NCBI GenBank assembly: GCA_030430205.1
Contig: JAUIGE010000011.1
Location: 62,001 to 126,000 of the forward strand
DNA length: 64,000 bases
Source of the DNA: Bacteroidia bacterium
Lineage (GTDB): Bacteria > Bacteroidota > Bacteroidia > J057
Direction: 5' to 3'
Shown: piece after piece, positions 9,512-33,805 of the stretch
How positions within the stretch are numbered: the first letter of the stretch is position 1
How the letters are laid out: every line of letters begins with the position of its first letter
The notes under the pieces: generated by a model
What the model saw: only the letters and a program-made list of their open reading frames with translations
What the model was told of the DNA's origin: nothing
Database searches by the model: none
Program-made: the position numbers and the translations under genes

Positions 9512-10042
9512 TTAACTCCTACTTGGGTACAAACCTTGTAAAGCGATGATAAAATTCAAGGCCAGGAAAGGCTGCATATTGGAATGAGCCTGGCCTCCCC
9601 CTGTAGCAGAGAGGCTTTGACTGGCTAAATCTACCAGGTTGGCAGTGGTGTTGGCCTGATAGGCTCTGGGAGACAAGTCCCGTGCAAAGGAAGAGGTATT
9701 GGTGGGAGCACCTGCGACCCCATTCGCTGTTGAACTTCCTCTCATGGTGTGAGAATGAGAGGGAATTTGAGCTTCTGAAAGGGTTACGGTTTCAGTTCCT
9801 GTTTTTTCACCCAACCTTCTTTCTGTAAGACCTGGTCCACGGCCCGGATGCATAGGCGCTCTCCCTTCCAGATTGGGGAGGGCTGTAGTTGTTCTTCCAT
9901 CACCACCATAAGTAGTTCCTATTAAGGAAAACAAGGCGGTATTTTGGGCTATAGGCAGCAATTGCCCGTTACAGAATGCCCAGGAACGAGGGGCAAAATT
10001 GCCCGCAAATATTCTGATTTCTGCAATGAATGGTTCTGACAT
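9512..10042 (-). CDS. phage tail collar domain protein (MdpB-like), copy 3
   Basis: 176 residues. The N-terminal collar domain carries the family pattern EIRIFAGNFAPRSWAFCNGQ, then LFSLIGTTYGGDGRTT and LPNLEGRAPMHPGRGPGL (up to about 75). A serine/threonine-rich middle and a conserved end (NMQPFLALNFIIALQGLYPSR) follow. The family (PF07484; microcystin-dependent protein MdpB) resembles the short tail fibre collar of phages but is also found outside prophages, in tandem arrays. No portal, capsid or tail-tape gene is nearby. It is the last gene of a three-gene operon. Confidence 0.88.
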   Translation of the reverse strand: MSEPFIAEIRIFAGNFAPRSWAFCNGQLLPIAQNTALFSLIGTTYGGDGRTTTALPNLEGRAPMHPGRGPGLTERRLGEKTGTETVTLSEAQIPSHSHTMRGSSTANGVAGAPTNTSSFARDLSPRAYQANTTANLVDLASQSLSATGGGQAHSNMQPFLALNFIIALQGLYPSRS

Positions 10043-10053
10043 GATTTTTTGGT

Positions 10054-10578
10054 TTAGTGACGTGAAGGGTAAATGCCAACCAGGGCGAGAATGAAATGGA
10101 TACAGAGTGTAGGCATCAGGTTCGTATGGGGTTGTGTGCCTCCGGTATTCGAAATTGCAGTTGGAGCAAAATTGGCATCCTGATTTACAGTTGCGTAGAG
10201 AGTAAGTCCTGTTGCTGTACCATCGGCCACCATTTTTCCCTGGGGAGCCGATCCTATTGCCACTTCTTTGTTGGCATTAAAATCATGGGAATGAGAAGCC
10301 AGTTGGTTTACAGTCAAAGTTACTTTCTCTTCTCCTGCTTTGGACCCGAGTCTTCGGGGTGAAAGGCCAGGACCCTGGCCCTGATGGATGGGGATTCTGC
10401 CGCGCAGATCCGGCAATCCAAAAGTAGTACGGCCATCGCCGCCATAGATAGTTCCATAAAGGGAAAAAAGGGCATCGTTTTGGCTTACAGCAAGGAGTTG
10501 GCCATCACAAAAGGCCCATCCCCTGGGAGCAAAATTGCCCGCAAACATTCTGATTTCTCCAACAAACGGTTCAGACAT
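10054..10578 (-). CDS. phage tail collar domain protein (MdpB-like), copy 2
   Basis: 174 residues with the same collar layout as its neighbours: EIRMFAGNFAPRGWAFCDGQ, then LFSLYGTIYGGDGRTT, LPDLRGRIPIHQGQGPGL, and an end NLMPTLCIHFILALVGIYPSR. The middle region (about 95-150) is the divergent part, as expected if it decides binding specificity. The 11-bp gap to copy 3 and 19-bp gap to copy 1 show a single transcript. No signal peptide is visible, so export, if any, is by an unusual route. Confidence 0.88.
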   Translation of the reverse strand: MSEPFVGEIRMFAGNFAPRGWAFCDGQLLAVSQNDALFSLYGTIYGGDGRTTFGLPDLRGRIPIHQGQGPGLSPRRLGSKAGEEKVTLTVNQLASHSHDFNANKEVAIGSAPQGKMVADGTATGLTLYATVNQDANFAPTAISNTGGTQPHTNLMPTLCIHFILALVGIYPSRH

Positions 10579-10597
10579 AATTTTTTCTGTTTAAGGG

Positions 10598-11101
10598 TTA
10601 GTTACGTGAAGGGAATAAGCCCTGGATTGCTATTACAAATCCAAGCGTTAAATAAGGTTGCATATTATCGTGAGCCTGACTGCCGCCAGCATTTGTTATG
10701 GTGCCAGAGCGTAAGGAAGTGATATTCCCTGCTTCAGGATCACGATAAAGATCGGCCGCAGAAGCCAAAACTTTGTCTGTCATGGCAAACTGATCACCAA
10801 CTGAACCGGAGGCTTTTACAGCATGGGTATGAGATGCAATTTCGGCTGCGGTAAGGGTTATGGTCTCTGCACCGCCTTTTTGGCCCAGAGGATGTGAATC
10901 TCCAACATGAATAGGAGTGCGGCTTCTCAGGTCAGGCAAAGCAAAGGTGGTTCTTCCATCTCCTCCATAGGTTGTCCCCAGGAGAGAATAAAGTGACTGG
11001 TTCTGATTGATTGGCATGATCTGCCCATCACAGTAAGCCCAGCCGCGAGGTGCGAAGTTGAAACCAACAATTTTGATTTCAGCTAAAAAGGGTTCTGACA
11101 T
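10598..11101 (-). CDS. phage tail collar domain protein (MdpB-like), copy 1
   Basis: 167 residues, first gene of the triplet. EIKIVGFNFAPRGWAYCDGQ, then LYSLLGTTYGGDGRTT, LPDLRSRTPIHVGDSHPLG and the closing NMQPYLTLGFVIAIQGLFPSR mark the collar family. Its C-terminal half differs from the other two, so the triplet is an old duplication and not a recent one. The promoter should lie in the 400-bp AT-rich gap upstream. Confidence 0.88.
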   Translation of the reverse strand: MSEPFLAEIKIVGFNFAPRGWAYCDGQIMPINQNQSLYSLLGTTYGGDGRTTFALPDLRSRTPIHVGDSHPLGQKGGAETITLTAAEIASHTHAVKASGSVGDQFAMTDKVLASAADLYRDPEAGNITSLRSGTITNAGGSQAHDNMQPYLTLGFVIAIQGLFPSRN

Positions 11102-18129: not shown

Positions 18130-18852
18130 TCAAAACCGAAAAGTCAATCCCACGCCAGGTCCGGGCATGGAGTTCGACCCACGGATGATTCCCGGTTCAA
18201 TGCGCATAGACAGATTTTCGGACACATCCAGATCGCGCAAATGCGCGGTGATATAGGCCTCCAGCGTCTGGACGAGGTGATAGCCAATCCCCATGAGGAT
18301 ATAATTATCCCGCTGTTGGCGAAATTTATTGCGCTCCGTTTTCAGGTTGTTGGGGGCTGAAAATTCATACGAACGCTCTGTGAGGAGAAAAAGGCTATCA
18401 GCCTCGGTGATGTTGAGGCCACGTTCATCGCGTTGGATTCGAATCCTGTAAGCCCTTTGGTAATTTTTATACTCGGTATTGGAGGTGTAGATCAGGTAGC
18501 CAAAAACCCCATAACCCGCATAAACGATGGGGATTTTCCAGGCGTGACGGTTGTAATATTGGCCCCAACCGGGGATGAGGATGCTACGGCGCCAGGCCAC
18601 TTCGGGATCGAAGGGTGGGGGAGCGGGCGCATAAAGCATTTTGGGTACATAAAATTGTATGGGCCTGCGACCTGGTAGGTCGAGGTCAAATTTTATGCGA
18701 TTACCTTCCTTTTGGAAAGGAGATTTGAGGTGCAAACGAAAGGGAGTGCCTGCACTATCTGCCTCTGCATGCTCAGTCGCTGTGCTGTCTGGTTGTTGAG
18801 CAGAAAGGGAAAGGCAAAAAAAACATAAGATGGCAAGGATGATTCCTCTCAT
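18130..18852 (-). CDS. DUF5683 domain-containing membrane protein
   Basis: 240 residues. A signal peptide (about 1-18, MRGIILAILCFFCLSLSAQ) is followed by a proline-rich spacer. The DUF5683 core is EVAWRRSILIPGWGQYYNRHAWKIPIVYAGYGVFGYLIYTSNTEYKNYQRAYR (about 83-135), which includes a hydrophobic hairpin. The end is predicted beta-rich (MRIEPGIIRGSNSMPGPGVGLTFRF). Its ATG overlaps the parB stop by 4 bp (ATGA), so it is translationally coupled to parB, an arrangement I recall as common in Bacteroidota. Function unknown. Confidence 0.82.
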   Translation of the reverse strand: MRGIILAILCFFCLSLSAQQPDSTATEHAEADSAGTPFRLHLKSPFQKEGNRIKFDLDLPGRRPIQFYVPKMLYAPAPPPFDPEVAWRRSILIPGWGQYYNRHAWKIPIVYAGYGVFGYLIYTSNTEYKNYQRAYRIRIQRDERGLNITEADSLFLLTERSYEFSAPNNLKTERNKFRQQRDNYILMGIGYHLVQTLEAYITAHLRDLDVSENLSMRIEPGIIRGSNSMPGPGVGLTFRF

Positions 18853-19766
18853 ATAATCCCCAGGATTTCGAGTATCTCATTGAGTTCGGACTCGCTAGAG
18901 AATTTGACGCGAATTTCGCCCTTTTCGCTGCCTGTTTTCTGGCTTACTTCTACTTTTGCCTGCAATTTATCCTGGAGCTTGCGCTCGACCTCTCTCAGCA
19001 ATTTTTGCTGAACGCCATCTTTTATTTTGGAGGAAGTATCCTTTGGACTTGCTTTCCCTTTATTTTGAGCCTCCTTGTAGGCTTTTACCCTTTCTTCTGT
19101 TTGCCGTACCGAAAGCTTCTGTCCAACGATTTCATCAAAAAAACTTAGCTGTACATCTACCTCTTTGATTCCCTTGATGGCTTTGGCATGACCCATGGAA
19201 AAATGGCTGTCATTGACCTTGAGGGCAGCGCGTGCGCGGTCTGGAAGTTCGAGCAAACCGAGATAATTGGCGATAGTAGACCGCTTTTTCTCCACTTTCT
19301 CTGTCAGTTCCTGCTGCGTCAATTTCAACTCCTTGATCATGCGTTGGTATGAAAGCGCAATTTCAATAGGGTTGAGGTCTTCCCTCCACACGTTTTCAAT
19401 CAGGGCGAGCATAACAAGCTCTTTGTCATTGGCTTCGCGTATGTATGCGGGAATGGTCTTGATATTGGCTTCCTTGGAAGCGCGCAGGCGGCGCTCGCCT
19501 GAGATGAGCTCATACTCATCATTGTCCAACTTGCGGACAGTGATCGGCTGTATGATGCCGTGATGCCTGATGGATTCTGCCAATTCCAAAATGGCATCCA
19601 TGTCAAAATCTGTCCTGGGCTGGAATCTGTTAGGACGAATTTTATCTACAGAAATCTCATTTATAGAGACTTTCTTTTGTATTTCCTGCTTTTTTTCTCC
19701 CGAAACTGTCGGGTCATTAAGTATGCTTCCCAGGCCCCTGCCGAGGCCTCCTGCTCTTTTGGCCAT
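18849..19766 (-). CDS. parB: chromosome-partitioning protein ParB
   Basis: 305 residues from the ATG at 19766. The frame stays open 162 bp further upstream only because it runs through the AGAGGAG repeat; MAKRAGGLGRGLGSIL is the normal ParB start. ParB/CTPase domain: GERRLRASKEA (90-100) and ENVWREDLNPIE (124-135). The HTH region for parS binding is about 150-180 (LTQQELTEKVEKKRSTIANYLGLLELP), and a C-terminal dimerisation helix follows. It loads on parS and spreads to segregate the origin. The partner parA is not adjacent, and I saw no convincing parS in the window. Confidence 0.95.
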   Translation of the reverse strand: MAKRAGGLGRGLGSILNDPTVSGEKKQEIQKKVSINEISVDKIRPNRFQPRTDFDMDAILELAESIRHHGIIQPITVRKLDNDEYELISGERRLRASKEANIKTIPAYIREANDKELVMLALIENVWREDLNPIEIALSYQRMIKELKLTQQELTEKVEKKRSTIANYLGLLELPDRARAALKVNDSHFSMGHAKAIKGIKEVDVQLSFFDEIVGQKLSVRQTEERVKAYKEAQNKGKASPKDTSSKIKDGVQQKLLREVERKLQDKLQAKVEVSQKTGSEKGEIRVKFSSESELNEILEILGII

Positions 19767-19784
19767 GTGTATTTTATTTTGGCT

Positions 19785-19810: not shown

Positions 19811-19916
19811 TGAGAGGGGGAAGCGAGAGGAGAGAGGAGAGAGGAGAGAGGAGAGAGGAGAGAGGAGAGAGGAGAGAGGAGAGAGGCGAGAGGAGAGAGG
19901 AGAGAGGCGAGAAGTA
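19811..19916. repeat. heptamer tandem repeat AGAGGAG upstream of parB
   Basis: About 14 units of 7 bp, most exactly AGAGGAG, some AGAGGCG or degenerate. The array begins about 45 bp upstream of the parB start codon. It encodes a spurious (SPLSSLL)n peptide on the minus strand. Confidence 0.9.
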
Positions 19917-19927
19917 AGACTTTTTCA

Positions 19928-19990
19928 TTGTCTCGCTTCTCGCCTCTCCTGGTCTCGCTTCTCATTGTCTCGCTTCTCTTCTCTCTATTC
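19928..19990. repeat. pyrimidine heptamer repeat, TCTCGCT/TCTCGCC type
   Basis: Degenerate 7-bp units between the AGAGGAG array and the terminator of small RNA copy 1. The last part (TCTCTATTCT) is shared with the sequence beyond the terminator of copy 3, showing that the flank was duplicated along with the RNA gene. Confidence 0.75.
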
Positions 19991-19991
19991 T

Positions 19992-20074
19992 AAAAAAAAA
20001 CCAGGGGACTCATCCTATTGGAGAATCAACCCTAGCCCTTGCTCTTGTAATTCCAGAACTATCGTCCTGTTGTA
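19992..20074 (-). ncRNA. putative sigma-54-dependent small RNA, copy 1
   Basis: About 80 nt on the minus strand. The RNA would start near 20074 with hairpin CAGGAC-GATA-GTTCTG, continue through an unpaired linker containing ACAAGAGCAAGGGC, and end in a branched-bulge hairpin. That hairpin has stems GGG/CCC, GATTC/GAGTC and TCC/GGA, loop AATA, and is followed by TGG and nine T. This is a textbook intrinsic terminator. The 71-nt core is identical to copy 3 and differs from copy 2 at one base in the first loop plus the 5' end. No reading frame is conserved. No similar RNA family is known to me. Confidence 0.75.
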
Positions 20075-20084
20075 CTTATACTAT

Positions 20085-20100
20085 TACCAGAAGTATGCCA
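20085..20100 (-). promoter_or_regulatory. decayed sigma-54-type promoter of small RNA copy 1
   Basis: TGGCAT-N5-TGGTA: the -24 GG is intact, but the -12 dinucleotide is GT instead of GC. Spacing to the RNA start is the same as in copy 3. Confidence 0.5.
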
Positions 20101-20199
20101 AATCTTATTTTCAGGAATAAATTTTTTAAATAAAATTTACTGAGTGTAATATCTGTGTTGGTAAAAAAATAGCCAAAACCCTTATTGGATTTTGGCCAT

Positions 20200-20279
20200 A
20201 AAAAAAACCAGGGGACTCATCCTATTGGAGAATCAACCCTAGCCCTTGCTCTTGTAATTCCAGAACTTTCGTCCTGTTA
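20200..20279 (-). ncRNA. putative sigma-54-dependent small RNA, copy 2
   Basis: Same RNA as copies 1 and 3. The only internal difference is in the first hairpin loop (GAAA instead of GATA), which leaves the stem CAGGAC/GTTCTG intact, as selection on RNA structure would predict. The 5' end reads TAACAGG instead of ACAACAGG. It ends in the same terminator with eight T. Spacers to copies 1 and 3 (134 and 182 bp) are unrelated in sequence apart from the promoter elements and an AAATTTAYT motif. Confidence 0.75.
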
Positions 20280-20289
20280 TAAATCTAAA

Positions 20290-20305
20290 TGCGATAAGCG
20301 TGCCA
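20290..20305 (-). promoter_or_regulatory. sigma-54-type promoter of small RNA copy 2
   Basis: TGGCAC-N5-TCGCA with exact GG-N10-GC spacing. Counting the C as -12 puts +1 at 20279, at the first base of the conserved RNA. Confidence 0.65.
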
Positions 20306-20382
20306 ATGTATGCTTATGATACAAATAAATTTTTTTAATTGTAATTTTTTCGCTGTGCATCAAAAAGCCCCTGTGGGAAAGA

Positions 20383-20452
20383 GGCGAGAAGCGAGAGGCG
20401 AGAAGTAAGACTTTTGAATAGTCTCGCTTCTCGCCTCTCTTCTCTCTATTCT
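20383..20452. repeat. heptamer repeat block beyond the terminator of small RNA copy 3
   Basis: Degenerate 7-bp units (GAGGCGA, GAAGCGA, then TCTCGCT, TCTCGCC) arranged as a purine block facing a pyrimidine block, so the region can fold on itself. It resembles the block at 19900-19990. Confidence 0.75.
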
Positions 20453-20535
20453 AAAAAAAAACCAGGGGACTCATCCTATTGGAGAATCAACCCTAGCCCT
20501 TGCTCTTGTAATTCCAGAACTATCGTCCTGTTGTC
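20453..20535 (-). ncRNA. putative sigma-54-dependent small RNA, copy 3
   Basis: The best-supported copy: a consensus -24/-12 promoter directly upstream, predicted +1 at 20535, the 71-nt conserved core identical to copy 1, and an intrinsic terminator ending in nine T. Sequence conservation among the three copies starts at the predicted transcription start and stops at the U-tract, the pattern expected of an RNA gene. Confidence 0.8.
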
Positions 20536-20545
20536 ATTCATAGTT

Positions 20546-20561
20546 TGCAATCCGTGTGCCA
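20546..20561 (-). promoter_or_regulatory. consensus sigma-54 promoter of small RNA copy 3
   Basis: TGGCAC-N5-TTGCA is a full match to the RpoN -24/-12 consensus with GG-N10-GC spacing. The first conserved RNA base is 12 bp downstream of the -12 C. An AAATTTACT motif lies 17 bp upstream of TGGCA; similar AAATTTATT motifs precede copies 1 and 2 at 15-18 bp. Confidence 0.75.
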
Positions 20562-20851: not shown

Positions 20852-23539
20852 TTAATTTTTTACCAATATCCTGATGGATAGATTGCTCTCTGAAGTGCTG
20901 ATATTCAGCAAATAAGCGCCTTCGGTGATTGTGGGTGGGAAGAGGATCTCTTCAAGATGGTTACCTGCAGTGCGTTGGCCTTTCAGCAATAAGGCAACTT
21001 CCTTGCCGTGAAGGTCGAGCAGGCGAAATATCACTTGCTGTGAAGCATTGAGCTGATAGGAGATATTGGCCTTGCCGTTAACAGGGTTGGGATAAAAAAG
21101 CCATTCTGAAATTCGATTTTCCTGCTCATCCAGGGGGGAAAGTATCCTAAAATCAGTCAGGATGTTAGCCATTAACAATTGGTGATTGGATTTGCCAACC
21201 AACAAAATTTCATTTTCGCTGATCTGTTTAAGGCTATAAATTATGTCTTCCTGTCCGCCCAGGTCCAGGCAAAACTGGCCATTTGTGCCAAAATCAGGAC
21301 AAGGAAGGCCATCCGATGTAAAGCATGCAAAAGCAATGTCGGTACTTTCGCTTTGCGGGTCTATCATTGAACCAGCCATCAAAATCCTTTTATTGCTCAG
21401 TCGGATCATGTCAAAACTTTTGGCAAGATTTGTCTGAAAGGTGGAACGTACTGCTCCCTGATTCCCGAAGCTGGTGTCTACCACACCGTTTGCATTTAGC
21501 AGGACTAGACCAAACTGACGGTTTGAGTTTCCTCCCAAAAGTATTTTCCCATCATTGTACACTTCCATACTATAGGCATCTCCACTATAAAAACCAGGCA
21601 TATTCACCTGTGCAATTCCATTTAGCCCAAAGTTGGTAGCCAGGTTTCCGTCTGCTTGTATTTTCGCAACCATAAAAAGAGAACCTGGACTCCCCGAAAG
21701 TAAAATTTCTTCCTGCTGATTGACAAAAAGGCCCCAGGGGTATTTTATGAATGTGGATTGGGTCGGAAGAAAAAACACACCTGACTGATTGAACGTGGAA
21801 TCCAATCTGCCATCTGCCTCCAATCGGATGATGAAAAAATGGTTTTCCCCTTCTATGAGACCCGCTCCGGCAAGGAGGAATTTGTTTCCAACTGATCCCG
21901 TAAGGCGCGTTCCAGCACTCCTTGAAATAGAAGGGAGTTGGTTGAGTGATTTTTGGACTTGCTGTGAAAACGATAAATCTATTTTGCCGCTTTTAAATAC
22001 CCGTTCCAATAGCAACTCTTTCCTGTTTTTTTGACCCGTAACAATGAAACTGCTATCGGAATCTTCTACAAAATCATAGATGCCTGTATGGTCAGGAAAG
22101 GCTTGTTCTGGGATATATTGCTGCTGAAGGAGTTGCCCAAAAGAGTCCACATGGATTAATAATCCTTTACTAAAGCCATGACTTATGTGGGAAGAAATAC
22201 CGCTGAGACCAGAAGCCCAAATTTGATTTTTGGCGTCTATTTTGACCCGGTACAGTTCACTTCCTCCATGATTGGTAGGAAAAAAGCTGTACCCCAAGTC
22301 TGCAAACCCAGGGTCCAATCGACCATCAGGAAGCAATCTGCTTATTGCCGCGAGGGTATGGGTGGACCCGGCAAGGTAAATGAGGCTGTCATCCTGAACC
22401 GCCATATCAAATGAAAAAGATACTTTGTTTTCAATTCTAAAACGAACAAGTCCCTGATAGCCAAAGTCTGGATCACGCTGACCATCAGCCTGATACCCAA
22501 ATGCGAGCATATTTCCGCTGCCTCCCCATGCACATATCCGAATTCTGCCATCCTCCAGGAAGTGAATTTCTCTTAATTGGGAAAGGGCTTGCCCGGTAGA
22601 GGGCTCCATGAATCCCTGGATTCCCCAAAGGGTATCCAGATTCCCATTGGGCGTAAACCTGGCTCCCCAAACCGCGGTGTCACTTCTGCCAATGGCAAGA
22701 AAATGTTGATTCGGAAAAACATGGATAAAATCAATAAACCTGGCGCCCCATTGGGCAGCATTCGATATGCTCTGATTTCCAAAACTAGAATCTGCCGCTC
22801 CATCCGGACCAAGGCGATGGATAAATCCGCTGCTTTCATTGTATCCCGCCACAAGCAGCAGGCTATCATGCTGAATTGCCATGCCATAGACAGCAGTCTT
22901 TTGCCCGGCGGGGAATTGCCAACTTTCAATGGGGTGAAAGCTGGTATCCAAATGGCCATTGGCAGTGAGTTTTTTTAGACTGATACCATAATTTTGAGGC
23001 CCGGCGAGGAAAAAACCTTCCTCGGGTGTCATGATCATACTGCGGAAAAAAACGGTGGCATTTTTCCAAAGGGTATCGCTGCTCAATCCGTTTAGCCCAA
23101 ATCCAGAGTCAATCTTTCCGTTTGCATCTGTTCGTAATAATGCGGGTTGGTTATCACTTGTAAAGCCAACAATCAGGCGGCCAGAGCTATCCTGACAGAT
23201 AAAGTCGATATATTCCCTAATTCCACCCGCTTCAAAAATGACATGCCCATTTTCGCCAAAAGTGCTATCCAATCGGCCATCCGGGAGAATACGGATCATC
23301 CACATTTCTTCCCAATTATCATAATTTAGATACAGATTCACGTTTATATTATAGCCGCTTCCCCCAATAATGAGCTTGCCATCAGCTTGAAGCAGACATG
23401 TATTGGCTTGACTATTTCCAGAACCCATATAGGGTTGAAAAATTCCCTGAGAGGCAAAGCTGCTGTCAAGTTTTTGTCCTGCCAGGGAGAGGATGTTGAG
23501 GAAAAGGATTATCAGGGTAAAGAGGGAATGGTTTTTCAT
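20852..23539 (-). CDS. delta-60 (DUF5122) propeller protein with T9SS sorting domain, paralog 5
   Basis: 895 residues, last gene of the propeller cluster. Signal peptide (MKNHSLFTLIILFLNILSLAG). Residues about 20-800 contain repeated units of the delta-60 type: LDSSFASQGIF, then LLQADGKLIIGGSG, MIRILPDGRLDSTFGENG and so on. These fold as blades of DUF5122-type beta-propellers. The C-terminal T9SS type A domain (about 815-895) has WLFYPNPVNGKANISYQL and ends RILVKN. No catalytic site is visible; binding or scaffolding on the cell surface is the likely role. The N-terminal GQKLDS junction is shared with its neighbour at 23562, marking close paralogy. Confidence 0.88.
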   Translation of the reverse strand: MKNHSLFTLIILFLNILSLAGQKLDSSFASQGIFQPYMGSGNSQANTCLLQADGKLIIGGSGYNINVNLYLNYDNWEEMWMIRILPDGRLDSTFGENGHVIFEAGGIREYIDFICQDSSGRLIVGFTSDNQPALLRTDANGKIDSGFGLNGLSSDTLWKNATVFFRSMIMTPEEGFFLAGPQNYGISLKKLTANGHLDTSFHPIESWQFPAGQKTAVYGMAIQHDSLLLVAGYNESSGFIHRLGPDGAADSSFGNQSISNAAQWGARFIDFIHVFPNQHFLAIGRSDTAVWGARFTPNGNLDTLWGIQGFMEPSTGQALSQLREIHFLEDGRIRICAWGGSGNMLAFGYQADGQRDPDFGYQGLVRFRIENKVSFSFDMAVQDDSLIYLAGSTHTLAAISRLLPDGRLDPGFADLGYSFFPTNHGGSELYRVKIDAKNQIWASGLSGISSHISHGFSKGLLIHVDSFGQLLQQQYIPEQAFPDHTGIYDFVEDSDSSFIVTGQKNRKELLLERVFKSGKIDLSFSQQVQKSLNQLPSISRSAGTRLTGSVGNKFLLAGAGLIEGENHFFIIRLEADGRLDSTFNQSGVFFLPTQSTFIKYPWGLFVNQQEEILLSGSPGSLFMVAKIQADGNLATNFGLNGIAQVNMPGFYSGDAYSMEVYNDGKILLGGNSNRQFGLVLLNANGVVDTSFGNQGAVRSTFQTNLAKSFDMIRLSNKRILMAGSMIDPQSESTDIAFACFTSDGLPCPDFGTNGQFCLDLGGQEDIIYSLKQISENEILLVGKSNHQLLMANILTDFRILSPLDEQENRISEWLFYPNPVNGKANISYQLNASQQVIFRLLDLHGKEVALLLKGQRTAGNHLEEILFPPTITEGAYLLNISTSESNLSIRILVKN

Positions 23540-23561
23540 GAAATATAGTCTTTAACTTATT

Positions 23562-26525
23562 CTATTTGATAAGGACCTTTATCGCTTGCCGCCCCTCTTG
23601 CGCTTCCAGCGCAAGCACATACCCACCCCGCGCCAGCCCTTCGGGCAGGCGGAGAAGCTCTTCCTGCGCGCCTTTCAGGCGCGGCTCGTCCAGCAAAACG
23701 GCCACTTCCTGGCCGCTGAGGGAGAGCAGGCGGATGCGCACCCGCTGCGCGTGAGAGAGGGTATAGCGAAGCTTTGCTTCGCTGTGGAGGGGATTGGGGT
23801 AGAGAAGGAGTGGGGGAAAGGAAGCTTCAGGATGAGGCTGTAGGTCCAGCTGTAGTTGGGGTAGGAGCTTTACGATCAGCATGCGGTCGCTGCTGTGTCC
23901 TGCCAGCAGGATGCTGCTATCCGGATTGACATGCATGTCATAGATGCATTCTCCAGCCCCGCCCGCATCCAGGATAAGGATGCCGTCTTCGCCAAATGTC
24001 GAATCCAATTGGCCATTTGGCTGATAACATGCCAGGGCCAGGTCCTGTAATTTCGATTCAATATGCTGGTAGTTACCCCCCAGGAGGATTCTGCCGTCTG
24101 GCAACTTTGTGATCGCATAGGCCCGGGCATCCCCATCGGGAAAGTAAGTGAAAGCCTTGCCATGCTCTCCAAAAGTACTGTCTGGTTTGCCGTTTTCCTG
24201 GTAGGCTGCCAGCACGAATGCCTCTCCCGAATACCCACCCATGACGATTTGATCATTCTCTTGCAGGATAAAACCTGCACAGGCTTTGGAGACAGGAAAG
24301 TCCAGTGGTGAGGAAGCAAATCCATTGATGCCAAAACTTGTGTCGGGATCACCATTGGGCAGAAATCGCATCAGGAAAAAAGCATTATAGGCGATCCCTC
24401 CGACGAGAAATCGTTTTTTGGAATCTGTCTGGATGGAAGGTGCCAGGCTGTAGTTTGTATAGGGAAGGTGTTGGGTGGCAATCCCTTGTTTGCCAAAATC
24501 GTTTTGGAGGACCTGGCCCTTTGCATCATAACAAATAATCGCCGGGGCGATGAGAAAGCTGTTAACAGGAAAATTCCCAAAAACATACAATTTCCCATCG
24601 GGGGACTGCATAGATGCACGCGCTTTCCCTGGCGGAAGCGGGATGAGTGAATTGGTTCCAAAAAGACTATCAGGCCTCCCATCAGGCAAAAATGCCTGGG
24701 CAAATGATTCAAAAGAGGAATTAAAATCGCCGATTGCGAGGGTACTGCCTCCTTTCAGTTGCAAAAAATCAGCGAAATCGATGCCCGAAGGAAGCGCATC
24801 CTTCTGACTGTTCCATACATTTTCCCCATTTCCCAAAAATTTTGACATAAAACTTAAGGGAGCAAAATCCGTCATCGTTGGATCGCTGGATCTAAATTGC
24901 CAACTCTTGCCAGCATTCCATATTCGGCCTTGCTCATCAACATGGATGATTTGACCGATACTGCTTCCGTCGGAGATCAGGTAGCTAAAAAAGCCTGTTG
25001 ACTCAAAGGCTGGGTCTAAATTGCCATCTGATCTGATTTTTCCGATATAATTTGTGGCACCCGTTTTTCCGGCAATGAAGAAGGAGGTATCTGATGCGGG
25101 AAAGATTCCGCTAACAGATGTCGAGCGTCCTTCAATTTGCCACCTTTGAAAGCCATTAAATCCAAAGGAGCTGTCAAGCTTTCCGTTTTGATCAAATTTG
25201 AAGACGAAGTCTTTGAGGATAGCAGCATAGCTGTTTGTGGCAAGTTGAATCAGGCCGGTGGGAGGATTGGAAGGAATTGGAATCTCGGCTGGAGGTAGGA
25301 GAACGCCATTTTCTCCAAATCCCCGGATGATTTCTCCCTTTCGGTTTACGGCTGTAAAGCAACCATATAAAAACCCCAACAGGTCGTTATTTCGCTTATT
25401 AGCCGAGATCAGGATGGTATCTTCAGCCAGTGGCCAAAAATAATTGTAGGAAAAAATGGCAGGGAGGCTATCGCTTGTTACAAATCCGTTTTCTCCAAAA
25501 GTGGAGTCAATCAGACCAGCAGGAGTGAGTTGAACAATCCAACTATTTATTCTATTACCTCCTCCTATCCACATGCGGCCATCCTGAAAAACATGTAATG
25601 AATGAAGATTCAAATCGCTGCCCTGATCCTGAAAAAGACTTATTCCCAGAATTCGAACCCCCTGTTTGCCCCATTCCTGCCTAAGGACTCCATCCTCTGA
25701 CAAGGAGGCAAGATAAATTTGAGTTTCTTGTGCCGTACGCTGAGAATATGCTCCAATAATAAAAAGATTGCCAGAAGGGCCAATATGAAAGCCCGATTGC
25801 GTAACATACTCCAGGTCTTCTGTTTGGAAGATCCCCTGGCTAGCAAAATCCTGGTCTTTTTTTCCATTGGGAAGCAGCCTGCAAATGAATAATTCATGGT
25901 TGAATAGCCCTGAAAGATATATTCTGCCTTTTTTGTCGATAGCAAGCTTACTTATCCTACTGGTATATAAACTTGCCTCCAAAGGAAGCAGCGCGGTCCC
26001 GCCCTCACCAAATGTCTCTATCAGATTTCCTTCCCTGTCAAAACACCTTATCCATACATCCAATCTTTCAGGATCATTTGACGAAAGATTTTGAGAGAAT
26101 CTGTAGCGTAAGTTGCTCCCTACGACAATAAAGCGATCTTCAGAGATCGCCTGGGTAAACAAGCTGTTTTCAGCACCTGTCCCAAGGCTTTGAGTGAGGA
26201 AGCCCTCCTCTCCCCACAGGCTGTCCAGCTTCTGACCCTGTAAGCTTAGTTGAGTGATAAACAGCATGAAATGCAAAAAAAGAAATACCTTTTTTAAGCT
26301 TCGGGGATTACCCGCAAGAGCCCCTACCCACAAGCCGAAATCCCCGATAGCGCTTTGTATTAAAAGGCTTTGCCTTTTGACAGGAGAAGCTGGGCCGGAT
26401 TTCCTGATTGTGGGCTGGCTTGTGGGTAATCCGGCCCTTAAGCTTCGGGGATTACCCGCAGGAGCCCCTATCCATAAGCCGAAATCCCCAATAGCGTTTT
26501 GCAAAAAAAGAAATGCCTTTTTCAT
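23562..26525 (-). CDS. delta-60 propeller T9SS protein, paralog 4, with insertion in its signal peptide
   Basis: 987 residues from the ATG at 26525, which gives the family-like MKKAFLFL start; an in-frame ATG at 26534 is also possible. The signal peptide is split: MKKAFLFL is followed by 76 extra residues containing two copies of AIGDFGLW-GA-AGNPRSL, and then KKVFLFLHFMLFITQLSLQG resumes. Removing 228 bp restores a normal signal peptide. The rest has delta-60 repeats (for example CFDREGNLIETFGEGG, RFLPNGDPDTSFGINGF) and a T9SS domain (LLLYPNPLHSEAKLRYTL, ending IKVLIK). With the insertion, export may fail or depend on the displaced hydrophobic segment. Confidence 0.85.
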   Translation of the reverse strand: MKKAFLFLQNAIGDFGLWIGAPAGNPRSLRAGLPTSQPTIRKSGPASPVKRQSLLIQSAIGDFGLWVGALAGNPRSLKKVFLFLHFMLFITQLSLQGQKLDSLWGEEGFLTQSLGTGAENSLFTQAISEDRFIVVGSNLRYRFSQNLSSNDPERLDVWIRCFDREGNLIETFGEGGTALLPLEASLYTSRISKLAIDKKGRIYLSGLFNHELFICRLLPNGKKDQDFASQGIFQTEDLEYVTQSGFHIGPSGNLFIIGAYSQRTAQETQIYLASLSEDGVLRQEWGKQGVRILGISLFQDQGSDLNLHSLHVFQDGRMWIGGGNRINSWIVQLTPAGLIDSTFGENGFVTSDSLPAIFSYNYFWPLAEDTILISANKRNNDLLGFLYGCFTAVNRKGEIIRGFGENGVLLPPAEIPIPSNPPTGLIQLATNSYAAILKDFVFKFDQNGKLDSSFGFNGFQRWQIEGRSTSVSGIFPASDTSFFIAGKTGATNYIGKIRSDGNLDPAFESTGFFSYLISDGSSIGQIIHVDEQGRIWNAGKSWQFRSSDPTMTDFAPLSFMSKFLGNGENVWNSQKDALPSGIDFADFLQLKGGSTLAIGDFNSSFESFAQAFLPDGRPDSLFGTNSLIPLPPGKARASMQSPDGKLYVFGNFPVNSFLIAPAIICYDAKGQVLQNDFGKQGIATQHLPYTNYSLAPSIQTDSKKRFLVGGIAYNAFFLMRFLPNGDPDTSFGINGFASSPLDFPVSKACAGFILQENDQIVMGGYSGEAFVLAAYQENGKPDSTFGEHGKAFTYFPDGDARAYAITKLPDGRILLGGNYQHIESKLQDLALACYQPNGQLDSTFGEDGILILDAGGAGECIYDMHVNPDSSILLAGHSSDRMLIVKLLPQLQLDLQPHPEASFPPLLLYPNPLHSEAKLRYTLSHAQRVRIRLLSLSGQEVAVLLDEPRLKGAQEELLRLPEGLARGGYVLALEAQEGRQAIKVLIK
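26272..26521 (-). mobile_element. REP-like palindrome cluster inserted in a signal-peptide gene
   Basis: A 228-bp insertion flanked by a near-identical 21-23 bp duplication (TGCAAAAAAAGAAATRCCTT, at 26272 and 26500). Inside are two 63-bp direct repeats (26294-26356 and 26438-26500), each a palindrome with GGGGAT/ATCCCC arms. Between them lies a related palindrome in opposite orientation with GGGCCGGAT/ATCCGGCCC arms (about 26392-26437), plus a small AAAAGGC-TTT-GCCTTTT hairpin. Arm changes are compensatory while the internal GGGTAATCC side is kept. This resembles alternating REP units (BIME-like). Confidence 0.75.
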
Positions 26526-26537
26526 ACAGCTCATTTT

Positions 26538-29237
26538 TTAGTTTTGGATCAGGACTTTGATCCCGATTCTATTTTCCTGTCCGCTCAGGCGGAGCATATA
26601 CAAACCCGGCTGAAGGCCGGTAGGGAAGTGCAATTGCTCCAGATGCTGGCCTGCCAGCCGCTCTTCATTCAAAAAGCTGTAAAGCTTTTTGCCGGGTAGG
26701 TCATAGAGCGATATCTCGATGCGCTGGCCGTAGGAAAGTGAATAGCTCAGGCTGGCCTGTTCGTTCAGCGGATTGGGGAATAACTGCACATGCTGGACGG
26801 CTTTTTCCTTTTCTTCCATCAGAAAAGACTGCCTATCCATCTGCAAAACGCGCATTTGATCCCTGACGGTGCCTCCCACAAAAATCCGCTCCTCGGTCAT
26901 GTGAATGCTGGAAGCTGAGGCATCCGCATTTCCGAAGGAAATCTTTCGCATCCCCCCTTCGCCAAAGGCTTCAACGGCTTTTCCATCAGCGGTAAAGTGG
27001 GCGAGCAGCCAGCTTTTTTGGGCTGTGCCCCGATCCTGAAGCTGTCCTGCAAGCAGGAAATCTCCATTCGGAAATCTCGCCGCATCGAAAATCTGGATTT
27101 CTCCAGAGGGAAAATAGGCTTTCACTATCCCGGCTTTGCCGAAGGTGGAATCTGGCCGACCATTTGCCTGGAAAGCTCTCAGTTGTAGCATGCCTTCTTC
27201 GCTGCCTGCCACCATGATGCGGCCATGTTCATCCCAAAAAATTTGTGCAGGAATAAACTGGCTCCACTGTTCCACAAGGCCCATCTGGCCAAAATCCGGG
27301 TCCAGCTCACCATTTTCCAAAAAGCGCAGCATGCTAAATTGATGGCTCCAAAAACCCGCTAACAGCACCCTGCCATCTGCATATCCGTGCATGCTGAGAA
27401 TTTTGTTTTTGGTGACATATATATCCTCGTTTTGAACAATGCCCGCACTGGCGAGGCTGAGGTCGGGAGCCCCATTGGGGAAAAAGCGCATAAAGCCCGG
27501 ATACGGATAATATCCGCCCAATATGATCCTGCCATCGGGCAGTTTTTGGACTTGCAAAGCTCGCCCATTGATGGCAAAAAGAACCTGGGTATCAAAAGTA
27601 TATTCAGGCCTTCCATCTGAAAAAACAGCTTTAAAAAGGGGTTGCAAATGGTTTTTGCCAGCAATGAGCAGGCTATCTCCCGCCTGCAATAGGTCAGCAT
27701 AAAAGACATCGGCAGCTTGCTGTTTTTGAAGAAAACTATGGCCCGGAAAACATGCCTGATGAGGCAGGAAGCTGTGTAAAAATCCCTGATTTTTAGGCGG
27801 ATTATTTCCACTTCCCCAAGTGGGATATTCGGATGCACCACAAATCCACAGCCTGCCTGTGCTGTCTTCAGCCATGGCCAGGGGAACACTGCCGCCTTCA
27901 GGCGGTGAAACGGGCTGATAGCCTGAAGGAGAGAGCGAAAAGTCGTTTTCGCCTTTGGTTCCCAGCTTTTTTAGCAAAGCCGCTTCCTCTGGGGAATCCC
28001 AAAGGAGAAAAAGATCTCCTGCTTGTGAAAGCGTAAAATCCCGCACGCTAAGGCTGGGAAGGGGGCGACTGAGGGTGCGCAGCCCCCGGAACCCAAAAGT
28101 TGAATCGTAGCTGCCATCCAGCTGTATTTGGAAAAAATTGTCTGCGTTTTTTTCTGCATAAAAAGCAGTGATTTTTCCGCCGGATAAGCTTCCGATTAAA
28201 TTTGATTGAGGTAAAGTATCCGGGATGGAAGGAGGCAATGTTGCAAATCCGTCCTGACCAAAACTCTGGTCAGGCATGCCCATGCTGTTCATTTTGAAAA
28301 TGGCAGGCCGGAAGGTAGGGTGGCTTTTTCCAAAAAGAAGGATATGCCCTGAGGAAGTCACAGAAATATCTGAAATATGTGCCAAAGGCAAGTTCTGGCT
28401 TGTCCAGAGGCCCTGCTGGGGCAGGCTTTTATTGAGAGAGCCGTCAGGCTTGAGTTGGAGGAGAAAATAGTCGGTAGAATCCGGATTTTTATAGCCCAGA
28501 ATCAGGGGGGATTCATCGGATAGAAGCTGAAGTCTTTGGTTGAAAAAAGGCCTGCTGAGCTGGACTCCGAAGATGTCCTTATCTTCAAATCTTGCCATGC
28601 CATGTTTTCCAAAACTGCTGTCTGGCTGTCCGTTGGGGTGAAATTGAAGCAGCGCCATTTCAATTTTGAGGTAATCCAGTTCTGCCAGGAGCAGTATTTT
28701 GCCATCCTTTTTGTGAACGGCATTTCTCACAGCACTCAGCTGAAAGGAAGGATTGTCCTTTATGCGAATCACCCCTTCTGAACCAAAAGTAGGGTCCAGG
28801 CTTCCATCTGCCAGCAGTTGAAACAGCAGGAGTTCCAGGCCACTTCTGCCAGCTACCAAAATCTTTTTCTGATGCTCAATCAGTAGGTTGGGCAAATACG
28901 CATCAAATCTGGAGGCCGTATAATGCTCGATTTCAAATACGACTTCACCCGCTTCCCCAAAATCCTGGCAAGGCTTGCCATCAGTTCCTACACACAAAAT
29001 GCGGTAATCCAGGTATTCCCGGGGCGCATCATAGGAGCGTGGATTGACCAAATGCCTGTTGGTTTTTCCGGCTATAAGCAGGCTGCCATTTTTCCAGCTG
29101 GAAATAGTACTTACCTCCATTTCCCCTTCCCCTAAAGCCGTCTTATAAGCAAATTCCCCACAAAATGGAGGACCAGTCCATTGGCAAAATGCTGGCAGGA
29201 GGTGGAGGAAGAGCAAAAAAGTGATGAGCTTTTTCAT
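26538..29237 (-). CDS. delta-60 propeller T9SS protein, paralog 3
   Basis: 899 residues. Signal peptide (MKKLITFLLFLHLLPAFCQ). Delta-60 units such as LLADGSLDPTFGSEGVI, FHPNGQPDSSFGKHGMARF and FQANGRPDSTFGKAGIV fill about 70-790. The T9SS type A domain (about 820-899) has QLFPNPLNEQASLSYSL and ends IKVLIQN. Each blade reports a 'D-G-x-x-D-x-x-F-G' core typical of DUF5122. It is separated from paralog 4 by only 3-12 bp, so they share a transcript. Confidence 0.88.
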   Translation of the reverse strand: MKKLITFLLFLHLLPAFCQWTGPPFCGEFAYKTALGEGEMEVSTISSWKNGSLLIAGKTNRHLVNPRSYDAPREYLDYRILCVGTDGKPCQDFGEAGEVVFEIEHYTASRFDAYLPNLLIEHQKKILVAGRSGLELLLFQLLADGSLDPTFGSEGVIRIKDNPSFQLSAVRNAVHKKDGKILLLAELDYLKIEMALLQFHPNGQPDSSFGKHGMARFEDKDIFGVQLSRPFFNQRLQLLSDESPLILGYKNPDSTDYFLLQLKPDGSLNKSLPQQGLWTSQNLPLAHISDISVTSSGHILLFGKSHPTFRPAIFKMNSMGMPDQSFGQDGFATLPPSIPDTLPQSNLIGSLSGGKITAFYAEKNADNFFQIQLDGSYDSTFGFRGLRTLSRPLPSLSVRDFTLSQAGDLFLLWDSPEEAALLKKLGTKGENDFSLSPSGYQPVSPPEGGSVPLAMAEDSTGRLWICGASEYPTWGSGNNPPKNQGFLHSFLPHQACFPGHSFLQKQQAADVFYADLLQAGDSLLIAGKNHLQPLFKAVFSDGRPEYTFDTQVLFAINGRALQVQKLPDGRIILGGYYPYPGFMRFFPNGAPDLSLASAGIVQNEDIYVTKNKILSMHGYADGRVLLAGFWSHQFSMLRFLENGELDPDFGQMGLVEQWSQFIPAQIFWDEHGRIMVAGSEEGMLQLRAFQANGRPDSTFGKAGIVKAYFPSGEIQIFDAARFPNGDFLLAGQLQDRGTAQKSWLLAHFTADGKAVEAFGEGGMRKISFGNADASASSIHMTEERIFVGGTVRDQMRVLQMDRQSFLMEEKEKAVQHVQLFPNPLNEQASLSYSLSYGQRIEISLYDLPGKKLYSFLNEERLAGQHLEQLHFPTGLQPGLYMLRLSGQENRIGIKVLIQN

Positions 29238-29299
29238 GAGATAAGGGTTGGCAAGTGTTTACTTAAGGAGTGCTAAATCCTAAAAGGATTTTTTTCATG

Positions 29300-32071
29300 T
29301 TAATCAATCTTTTGAATTTTAACAAAAGCAACAGTTTCGCCCATCTCCACCCGAATCACATACCAGCCCGGCGCAAGCGCCGGCGAAAATTCGAGCATCT
29401 GCTCGTGCTTGCCCGCAAGGCGATCGCCTTGCCAGAGCAAGCCCAGGGAGCGACCTTGCAGGTCGATGAGGGAGATGCTTATCCGCTGATCTTCAGCGAG
29501 TTCGTAGCGCAATGTCGCCGATTGGCGAATGGGGTTGGGGTAGAGGAGGGGCAAGCTTTGCCCTTTGTCGATCCATGGCTCCTGCGGAGGCAGGAGGAGG
29601 TCGCTGAGGACCTGGACCATGAAGGCCTGGCCGTTGGAGTTGCCACAAATCCAGATGTTGTCATCTTCCCGCAGGAGGAGGTCCTCCGGGAAATTGTAAT
29701 AGCCGCTCAGGTCAAAGATGAAATGCCCTTCCGTGCCGAAATCTTTTCGCAAGCGGCCAAAAGCGTCGTAACGGGACAGCATTATTTGATAGCCTGCCTC
29801 TACCAGGTTGTCGATATATCCCAGAACCAGCAAGTCGCCATTGGCGGCCATCTCCATATCGGAGAAAAAGACCGAACCCGCTTCCTGAGCGCTGGTCACC
29901 AGGCCATTTTCTCCAAAGTTGGGGTTGATTTCCCCTTCGGGCGTATACTGGATGAGGCGTATTTTGCCTCCCAGTTCGCCTGCCTGGGTGACATAGCCCG
30001 ATGAATGGAGGGCAAGTTTGCCGCCGGAAGTGGTGTTGGCTTCCGCTAGGAAATAGCCGTTTTCTCCCTGCTCTCCCCAGAATTTTTCAAAAAATCCATC
30101 CGAAGAAAGACAGGCAACACCCATCCCCAAATCCTTAATTCCGATGTTGGCGGATCTTCCGCCCAGCAGGATCTTCCCGCTGGGAAGAGGCAGGAAATGT
30201 ACTGCTTCCTGAACAGCCGATTGGCTGGGGATATCGAAAACAGCTGTGCTGCTGTTGAAGTAAGCGCTATCCAATTGCCCATTGGGCAAAAAGCGGCTGA
30301 GGCTGATGCTGTTTTTTTGGTCAAAAAAAGAACCAAGCAACAGCGTTGTGGTGGTGGCTACCAGGATTTTCTCATCCGCTAAAATATGGATAGCATAAGG
30401 TGCTATGCCGATGATTTGGTCATTGAGCTCGGGTTCTGAAAAGAGGGTGAAACCGTTTTCACCAAAGTTTTCGTCTATCGTCCCATCTGCTTTTATTTTG
30501 GTGAGAAAAGGGGCTTTTCTGATTCCCAGCGATGATTTTGTCATTCCTCCCACCACCAGCAAGCTGCCATCCCCGCTTTGCACAACATCATGAATCAGGC
30601 AGCCTTCTTTGGCAAATGGAAAAGAAATGCTGAGCTGCTCTTCGCCTTGCGAATCATACTGAAACAATTGGCTGAAAGGCTGGGCCTCCGTATTGCCTCG
30701 GTTGTTGGGCAGTCTAAAGGCGGCGATGCCGGAGGCGAGAAAACGATTGCTGGAGAGGGGAAAAAGTTTCCACAGATCACTGCCCCCGCCCGTAATTGTG
30801 CGGTTGATATAGCCTTTTTCCTGAAAATAAGGGTCAAAAGTGCCCATGCTGTCCAATTGGACAAGGGAGTAGAGATGAGAGCAACTACCAGTCATCCTGA
30901 TGTCGCCTGTGGACGAAAGCATGACATTATTGGCGAAGCAGGCTTTATTTTCTATAGTAAAAATAACTTCTCCCTGAAAGCCGAAAGTGGTATCGGGGCT
31001 GCCCGAGGGATTCAATTTGTTGAGCAAATAACTTCTTGAGAAGTAGGACTGAAAGAATATTTCTCCTTTTTCTGAGACTGCCATCGAACGAAAGGGAAAG
31101 CTTGAAGAATAGAGCGGTTTGCTTAATTTTCCATCCAAACGATCCGGATCGGGCTTTCCATCGGCAGTATAGGCTCCAAAAAAACTTTTATCACTATTCT
31201 CCCCCCAATGACCTCCGGCAATGAATGATTGATCCTTGAAAATATGCAAATCCCAGACCTTGCCAGGAAAAACGATATCGGTTATGAGAAAATAGCCATT
31301 CGTTGAAAAAGTGGGATCCAGTTTGCCTCGCGGGTCTACCCGCATGACGATAGGAAAATAATCCATCACCCCTCCCACCAAAAGCAGGGAATCCTGATGA
31401 ACAGTGAGGCAAAAAGCATCTTCATCCTTTTCACTTCCTGTGATCCCCACCCGGGCGATGCCATCATCGCCAAATGTAGAGTCAAAATGACCCTGAGCAG
31501 TCAATTGAATCAGGAGAAAGTCCTTGGACTCCTTTCCACAAAGGACAATCTCTCCCCCAGGTTTGAGAGCAAAATCTCTGATTTCGCCGGTAAAATCGGA
31601 GGAAAATATCTGCAGAAAACCCTTTTCGCCAAAAGTCGAATCTCTGCTACCATCAGCCCGAAATTTTGCCAGGACAAAAGCCTGATCGCTTTTTCCCAAA
31701 GCAAAAATTTCTCCCGAACTATGGGCCGCGACTTTGTAAAAAAACTCTCCCGATAAGCGGCCATCAATCACCAGGGCTCCATGGTTTCCAAAACTACTAT
31801 CGGGGCTTCCATCTTCTAAATGCCTGATTAATAGGAAATTCCTGTCTTTATATTGGAACCGTCCCGGATTATTTACCCAAACTGTTTTTCTCAGCTCTCC
31901 TGCAATCAGGGTTTTGCCATCTGGCTGGATCAGGGCATCATAGAGGCCGGGCTCTCCCTCGCCCCAGGGCTTTTGCAGGGCCTTGTCTGGATAGCCTGGC
32001 GCGAATTGGGGGTTTTGTGCCAACAACAAAAGGGGGAAGAGAAGCAGGAATAGGCTGCAGTATTTTTTCAT
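29300..32071 (-). CDS. delta-60 propeller T9SS protein, paralog 2
   Basis: 923 residues. Signal peptide (MKKYCSLFLLLFPLLLLAQ). Repeats include LIQPDGKTLIAGEL, HLEDGSPDSSFGNHGAL, LTAQGHFDSTFGDDGIARV and LNPSGSPDTTFGFQGEV. The C-terminal domain is LLYPNPIRQSATLRYEL with the end VAFVKIQKID. The 62-bp gap to paralog 3 holds no terminator. The 3' third of the gene is richer in GC than the rest, a common feature of the sorting-domain ends in this cluster. Confidence 0.88.
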   Translation of the reverse strand: MKKYCSLFLLLFPLLLLAQNPQFAPGYPDKALQKPWGEGEPGLYDALIQPDGKTLIAGELRKTVWVNNPGRFQYKDRNFLLIRHLEDGSPDSSFGNHGALVIDGRLSGEFFYKVAAHSSGEIFALGKSDQAFVLAKFRADGSRDSTFGEKGFLQIFSSDFTGEIRDFALKPGGEIVLCGKESKDFLLIQLTAQGHFDSTFGDDGIARVGITGSEKDEDAFCLTVHQDSLLLVGGVMDYFPIVMRVDPRGKLDPTFSTNGYFLITDIVFPGKVWDLHIFKDQSFIAGGHWGENSDKSFFGAYTADGKPDPDRLDGKLSKPLYSSSFPFRSMAVSEKGEIFFQSYFSRSYLLNKLNPSGSPDTTFGFQGEVIFTIENKACFANNVMLSSTGDIRMTGSCSHLYSLVQLDSMGTFDPYFQEKGYINRTITGGGSDLWKLFPLSSNRFLASGIAAFRLPNNRGNTEAQPFSQLFQYDSQGEEQLSISFPFAKEGCLIHDVVQSGDGSLLVVGGMTKSSLGIRKAPFLTKIKADGTIDENFGENGFTLFSEPELNDQIIGIAPYAIHILADEKILVATTTTLLLGSFFDQKNSISLSRFLPNGQLDSAYFNSSTAVFDIPSQSAVQEAVHFLPLPSGKILLGGRSANIGIKDLGMGVACLSSDGFFEKFWGEQGENGYFLAEANTTSGGKLALHSSGYVTQAGELGGKIRLIQYTPEGEINPNFGENGLVTSAQEAGSVFFSDMEMAANGDLLVLGYIDNLVEAGYQIMLSRYDAFGRLRKDFGTEGHFIFDLSGYYNFPEDLLLREDDNIWICGNSNGQAFMVQVLSDLLLPPQEPWIDKGQSLPLLYPNPIRQSATLRYELAEDQRISISLIDLQGRSLGLLWQGDRLAGKHEQMLEFSPALAPGWYVIRVEMGETVAFVKIQKID

Positions 32072-32111
32072 AGATATTCGGAAAAAGCAAGAGCTGTATA
32101 CAAGTCAAAAA

Positions 32112-33764: not shown

Positions 33765-33805
33765 AGAGGGAAGATACAAAAAAGATTTTAGTTGAAGGAG
33801 TCTCC

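Follow-up and report, generated by a model that had tools for sequence, protein, structure and literature searches.

A multicopy structured RNA family of Bacteroidia with candidate sigma-54 promoters at two of three copies beside parB

Three RNA copies beside parB

The window analysed here is a whole stretch of 64,000 nucleotides from a Bacteroidia bacterium. Sequence inspection and a repeat finder revealed that its minus strand carries three copies of one RNA, with parB (18849..19769, minus strand) directly downstream of the trio. Copy 3 spans 20453..20535, from a predicted +1 at about 20535, placed from the position of the -12 element, to the end of the T-run (core match 20454-20508); copy 2 spans 20200..20279 (core match 20200-20254) and copy 1 spans 19992..20074 (core match 19993-20047). 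The 71-nt core, CAGGACGAWAGTTCTGGAATTACAAGAGCAAGGGCTAGGGTTGATTCTCCAATAGGATGAGTCCCCTGGTTTTTTTT, is identical in all three except for a single loop base in copy 2 (GAAA, not GATA). A preliminary description of this DNA had claimed both the three near-identical minus-strand copies and the single loop difference, and both were borne out. It had also called the genes triplicated, which is right for the parB-side locus, although the genome has additional copies at C73:160055, C23:293268 and C4:8320 and a weak one at C20:339669. The genome thus holds six good copies (four on C73, one each on C23 and C4) and the weak one on C20.

In the fold of each copy, an unpaired AAUUACAAGAGCAAGGG stretch separates a 5' hairpin from a long bulged terminator hairpin; folding energies are -28.3 to -28.7 kcal/mol and z-scores relative to dinucleotide shuffles are -3.4 to -3.8. 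The terminator hairpin, already noted in the preliminary description, proved longer than it appeared there: the stem CUAGGG/CCCUGG is followed by a UU bulge, a second stem GAUUC/GAGUC and then a further apical stem.

Next to copies 1 and 3 (window 19820-19980 and 20380-20450) stand GA-rich repeats of low complexity (GAGAGGCGAGAAGCGAGAC), also present in inverted orientation, which may have helped to duplicate the sRNA genes. Paralogous genes were also seen elsewhere in the window. At least five large paralogous proteins are encoded almost consecutively at 20852-36544 (minus strand), the one scanned carrying DUF5122 propeller repeats and a type IX secretion tail, and three neighbouring paralogous ORFs of about 170 residues each lie at 9512-11101 (minus strand).

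A covarying RNA family with tandem arrays

That the trio belongs to a structured RNA family is near certain, and the family is apparently undescribed. No Rfam family matched the window at the gathering score, a permissive search returned chance matches only and no Qrr, and the relatives of the trio were likewise without an Rfam match. Using a covariance model built from 36 cores for searches of the order and the class, we found the RNA in 19 of the 22 genomes of the order and in 24 of 395 genomes class-wide; the members beyond the order are one genus with strong matches and one eight-genome genus with weak matches. All 13 genomes of the window's family carry it, as found by DNA search, with the copy in G011 confirmed by the covariance model alone. 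A phylum scan with R1 matched 2 of 395 genomes, namely the window's own and one borderline case. Pattern searches found the RNA in none of 2.9 million viral contigs, and the genome records that matched the pattern were almost all of uncultured Bacteroidia. The group f50 (eight genomes of one genus, 30-35 bits), with conserved GGGTTGATTC...TTGAGTCCCC and TAnnTTTG, comprises probable but not certain remote members. At four of the loci L092-L099, probable remote members from one small-genome genus, a GARS (purD-like) gene lies directly downstream.

The stems of these homologs covary strongly, which bears out the earlier claim of a multicopy RNA gene family. In a MAFFT alignment (A1), made from sequence, 96.1% of cells pair, with 74 double-side changes against 25 in shuffles (0/500). 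Among 98 distinct model-fitted rows, an alignment that leans to the structure, 98.5% of cells pair, with 250 double changes against 64 in shuffles. Covariation is free in the outer stem and at the tip, and modest in the 5' hairpin (double changes in 2 of 6 pairs, 11 sequences). The middle of the terminator hairpin, GG-UU-GAYUC ... UU-GAGUC-CC, is invariant: four of the five GAYUC/GAGUC pairs (G-C, A-U, U-A and C-G) hardly vary, with at most 1 of 96 departing, and the central pair is U-G, C-G, U-A or A-U. Since UU (or UC, UA) precedes both strands of the middle stem in most members, the bulged hairpin is almost two-fold symmetric (UUGAYUC versus UUGAGUC). A plain terminator needs no such invariance, which suggests that the hairpin is recognized by a protein. 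The preliminary description had proposed action through the linker or the loops, which may or may not hold: invariance is highest in the bulged terminator hairpin, not in the 5' hairpin. A crude search for linker-complementary 8-mers near start codons gave 5 matches, against about 2.7 expected from length alone, numbers too small to be informative.

All copies end in an intrinsic terminator. The linker GAGCAAGGG is nearly invariant in copies of types A, B and D and in arrays, and differs in types C and E, in which stem B is kept. The shortest architecture is that of L026, L118 and L048, where the RNA begins almost at AAAGAGCAAGGG and thus consists of an unpaired 5' stretch and the terminator hairpin. 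Type C members L100, L103, L106, L108 and L111 have a GGCATTACGCC hairpin, a CAGAAGCTAGGGG linker, an adjoining ScpA-like gene (identity scanned in L100 and L108) and a nearby ECF sigma factor gene; L102, L105, L109 and L115 adjoin an outer-membrane-barrel and ECF sigma pair.

Six genomes have head-to-tail arrays of a 52-58 nt unit that consists of linker and hairpin: 40 units in G003, 18 in G005, 7 in G007, 4 in G006, 3 in G004, and at least 2 on each of two contigs in G009. The arrays located were L046:743-2990 (minus strand), L041:3352-3514 (minus strand), L038:4269-5209 (plus strand), L043:8237-8633 (plus strand) and L040:3817-4028 (minus strand). The last three are followed by a gene for a dynamin-like GTPase with a weak LeoBC match; other array neighbours encode a TonB/TPR protein and a secreted protein that is vWA-like by eye (no Pfam match). 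T runs within the arrays are 4-6 long, and that of the last unit is usually longer by at least one (8 in L043, 6-7 in others, but 5 in G003), as if the inner terminators were tuned for read-through. A type III toxin-antitoxin array was considered and rejected, as no ToxN/CptN/TenpN-like toxin family was present among the array neighbours scanned. An array close to that of G005 was also seen in L166 (NZ_RCBY01000327), a 6.4 kb contig assigned to the cyanobacterium Okeania hirsuta; because it resembles the G005 array region, this contig is most likely Bacteroidota contamination.

Promoter classes and the LytS/LytTR link

We examined the upstream regions of 81 copies. Most have TAnnTTTG, the ordinary Bacteroidota box, at a fixed distance, so that sigma-54 is not the usual promoter of the family. 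Upstream of TAnnTTTG we counted 56 AC[CA][AG]TTC[AG] boxes against 2.4 expected. They form direct repeats with a spacing of mostly exactly 21 nt. In LytTR sites, repeats of 9-11 nt are separated by 11-13 nt (PMC4847170), and because the 21-nt period fits this arrangement we read the boxes as LytTR-type. At least one strict box was present in 31 of the 81 copies, and array leaders carry such boxes too; the search found none at any of the window copies.

Genes for a LytS-type kinase and a LytTR regulator (Pfam His_kinase and LytTR) lie directly behind a copy or an array in 11 genomes (G000, G001, G002, G003, G004, G005, G007, G008, G009, G010 and G021, by kinase ortholog), with the kinase at most about 600 nt, and mostly no more than 350 nt, from the RNA. 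In the three genomes of the order that lack the RNA, this kinase has no good ortholog. On the pattern of boxes and gene order, much of the family is likely to be under LytTR control, and the family looks to be switched on mainly by a two-component system.

The -24/-12 elements of the trio sit where the preliminary description had placed them. Copy 3 has a full-consensus element, TGGCACACGGATTGCA (20546..20561, minus strand), copy 2 has TGGCACGCTTATCGCA (20290..20305, minus strand), in which GG-N10-GC is retained, and copy 1 has a weak, degenerate element, TGGCATACTTCTGGTA (20085..20100, minus strand), in which GC is changed to GT. Nine copies in three genomes of three genera, namely window copies 3 and 2, six paralogs in G002 and one copy in G008, score at least 12.4 of 14.5 at an offset of -51 to -53 from the core, where about 0.02 were expected. 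The copy 3 element has the top score among 1.1 million positions tested and the copy 2 element is within the top 8; the only TGGCACN5TTGCA of the 7.24 Mb genome is the one at copy 3. A further -24/-12 element at L127 in G002 has another offset, as its leader differs, and L112 in G001 has a weaker one. Sigma-54 copies lack TAnnTTTG at -35 to -40 and keep the same predicted start, so that the two promoter classes are mutually exclusive with a common start point. Of the sigma-54 promoters claimed earlier, those of copies 2 and 3 thus greatly exceed chance and have counterparts at this offset in other genera, while that of copy 1 is too weak; copy 1 has a good promoter of neither class, and TATAAGTA, nearer its start, could be an alternative weak sigma-A -7 box.

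The window's genome has rpoN and 8 sigma-54 activator genes, none of them tied to the trio, and no common enhancer site was found upstream of the sigma-54 copies. With rpoN present and covarying homologs found, two of the conditions that the preliminary description had named as refuting it do not apply. All 22 genomes of the order have rpoN, and therefore its presence alone cannot explain which genomes use sigma-54. Some sigma-54 copies in G002 keep LytTR-like boxes farther upstream, which may be either relics or functional. In the sister species (G001, L056) a single RNA copy lies directly upstream of parB and has a sigma-A promoter, TATACTTG, together with LytTR boxes. Judged by the rest of the family, which sets the direction of change, the trio most likely arose by triplication and promoter replacement, and comparison of the parB locus would thus capture a promoter-class swap between two species of one genus.

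These observations also bear on the alternative that the -24/-12 elements are chance matches and that the trio uses degenerate sigma-A boxes (TATGAATG, TAGATTTA and TATAAGTA) like its relatives. Every window copy does have a TA-rich octamer where relatives have TAnnTTTG, the orthologous sister-species copy has its sigma-A box, and copy 1 has a poor -24/-12 element. Nevertheless, nine elements in three genera far exceed the chance expectation, even though the six G002 copies are paralogs, and exactly those nine copies are devoid of TAnnTTTG at -35 to -40 while the start is the same for either class. We therefore regard the sigma-A alternative as unlikely. Copies 2 and 3 are likely to be controlled by sigma-54, and sigma-54 promoters are, by this comparison of predicted elements, a derived minority within the family.

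Proposed mechanism and relation to known systems

In the mechanism that we favour, the copies would be trans-acting small RNAs, many of them activated by the LytTR regulator encoded with the LytS-type kinase beside one copy or array in the 11 genomes. A sigma-54 promoter would have been acquired by window copies 2 and 3 as well as by copies in genera g2 and g8, and through it the same RNA could answer a second signal. The invariant bulged hairpin would be the binding site of a putative RNA-binding protein, perhaps dimeric, and the sRNAs, above all the arrays, would titrate this protein, following the logic of Gac/Rsm or Csr without CsrA. We hold titration through the hairpin to be nearly an even chance, and favour it because a unit arrayed up to 40 times and invariant letters that are paired fit a protein site better than a seed alone. 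CsrA was found in 0 of the 22 genomes, with control genomes positive, and no Hfq scored over the cut-off in the 22; the titrated protein would therefore have to be another, new one. CsrB with CsrA and Qrr with Hfq were accordingly rejected as identities for the RNA, the partner proteins being absent. Expression, sigma-54 dependence and LytTR binding are all predictions from the DNA.

The unpaired GAGCAAGGG speaks against titration, as its conservation extends to the array units and it could serve as a seed for base pairing. The chief rival builds on this: a base-pairing sRNA family, Qrr- or FopS-like, in which the linker pairs with mRNAs, the terminator hairpin stabilizes the RNA and perhaps engages a chaperone, and the arrays are multi-seed transcripts or sponges. 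Base pairing is a common mode among multicopy sRNAs, the linker is nearly constant across types A, B and D and the arrays, and in the shortest members it is unpaired and near the 5' end, an architecture (L026, L118 and L048) matching that reported for FopS (PMC11697453). Yet the order has no Hfq, the most invariant letters are paired in stem B, where mRNA pairing does not need them, and the linker changes in types C and E though stem B stays; we give this rival an appreciable probability, clearly short of even.

It is quite unlikely that the copies are cis-acting attenuators, that is, terminator-bearing leaders for the gene behind them (LytS kinase, parB, the scpA region or purD). Many copies do have a co-oriented gene 50-350 nt downstream, above all that of the LytS kinase in 11 genomes, and every copy ends in a terminator. 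Several, however, are followed by no gene in the same orientation, and where genes do follow they are unrelated to one another. The conserved parts show no evident alternative fold that could act as an anti-terminator, tandem copies and up to 40 terminators in a row would be senseless in a leader, and the copies have promoters of their own. Mobile or repetitive DNA (REP/MITE-like, CRISPR-like or a type III antitoxin array) that has no role as an sRNA in the cell would account for multiple, dispersed and sometimes tandem copies with 52-58 nt units; against it stand the promoter and LytTR boxes at fixed offsets, kinase synteny conserved across genera, the absence of terminal repeats, transposase or spacers among the features seen, and the neighbours, none toxin-like, with the dynamin-like GTPase behind three arrays. 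As no viral contig matched the pattern, a phage or mobile origin was rejected, and we consider this reading very improbable.

Among known systems, Qrr of Vibrio resembles the new family in that one genome encodes several short sRNAs, nearly identical to each other, with sigma-54 promoters, intrinsic terminators and possible signal integration; the likeness in promoter holds, by sequence, for window copies 2 and 3, copy 1 being weak. Unlike Qrr, the new family has no sequence or Rfam relation to it, belongs to an order without Hfq and uses sigma-54 in a minority of members only. CsrB, RsmY and RsmZ are likewise sibling sRNAs that a two-component system switches on and in which hairpins recur along a single transcript, and the response-regulator (LytTR-type) boxes at many family promoters, though not at the window trio, recall CsrB and RsmZ; in contrast, the new family lacks GGA-loop repeats and an Rfam match, its 22 genomes lack CsrA, its regulator is of LytTR type and its repeats are precise tandem arrays. 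RNAIII of the Agr system is also driven by a LytTR regulator on direct repeats about 21 nt apart, but it is a single long RNA in Firmicutes, whereas the new family is short and multicopy. Control can also vary from one csrB copy to another (PMC6262261).

A case within the phylum is FopS, a multicopy sRNA family of Bacteroides with sigma-ABfr promoters (PMC11697453), so that the earlier statement that no such family is known in Bacteroidota no longer stands for multicopy sRNAs in general, although the literature searched yielded no sigma-54-driven or arrayed one. FopS/GibS (Bacteroides, with RbpB) share multiple copies, sigma-A promoters of the Bacteroidota kind and an unpaired 5' stretch followed by a terminator hairpin; they differ in host group, and the new family lacks an Rfam match. 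LytTR boxes, sigma-54 promoters and tandem arrays are not among the features reported for FopS in the available text of PMC11697453.

Taken as a whole, the data may point to a new RNA-protein system in Bacteroidota that lack Hfq and CsrA, in which LytS/LytTR-driven sRNAs and arrays would titrate a new protein and sigma-54 would have been recruited repeatedly as a second input, a view we put forward tentatively and at less than even confidence. The 52-58 nt unit, repeated 3-40 times, offers a ready bait for catching the RNA's partner. Signal-integrating sibling sRNAs (Qrr, CsrB and RsmY/Z) are known in Proteobacteria, where they act via Hfq or CsrA. A branch of the phylum without either protein appears to rebuild this sibling-sRNA logic from other parts: an RNA module of its own, LytTR control and promoter-class swaps at a fixed start.
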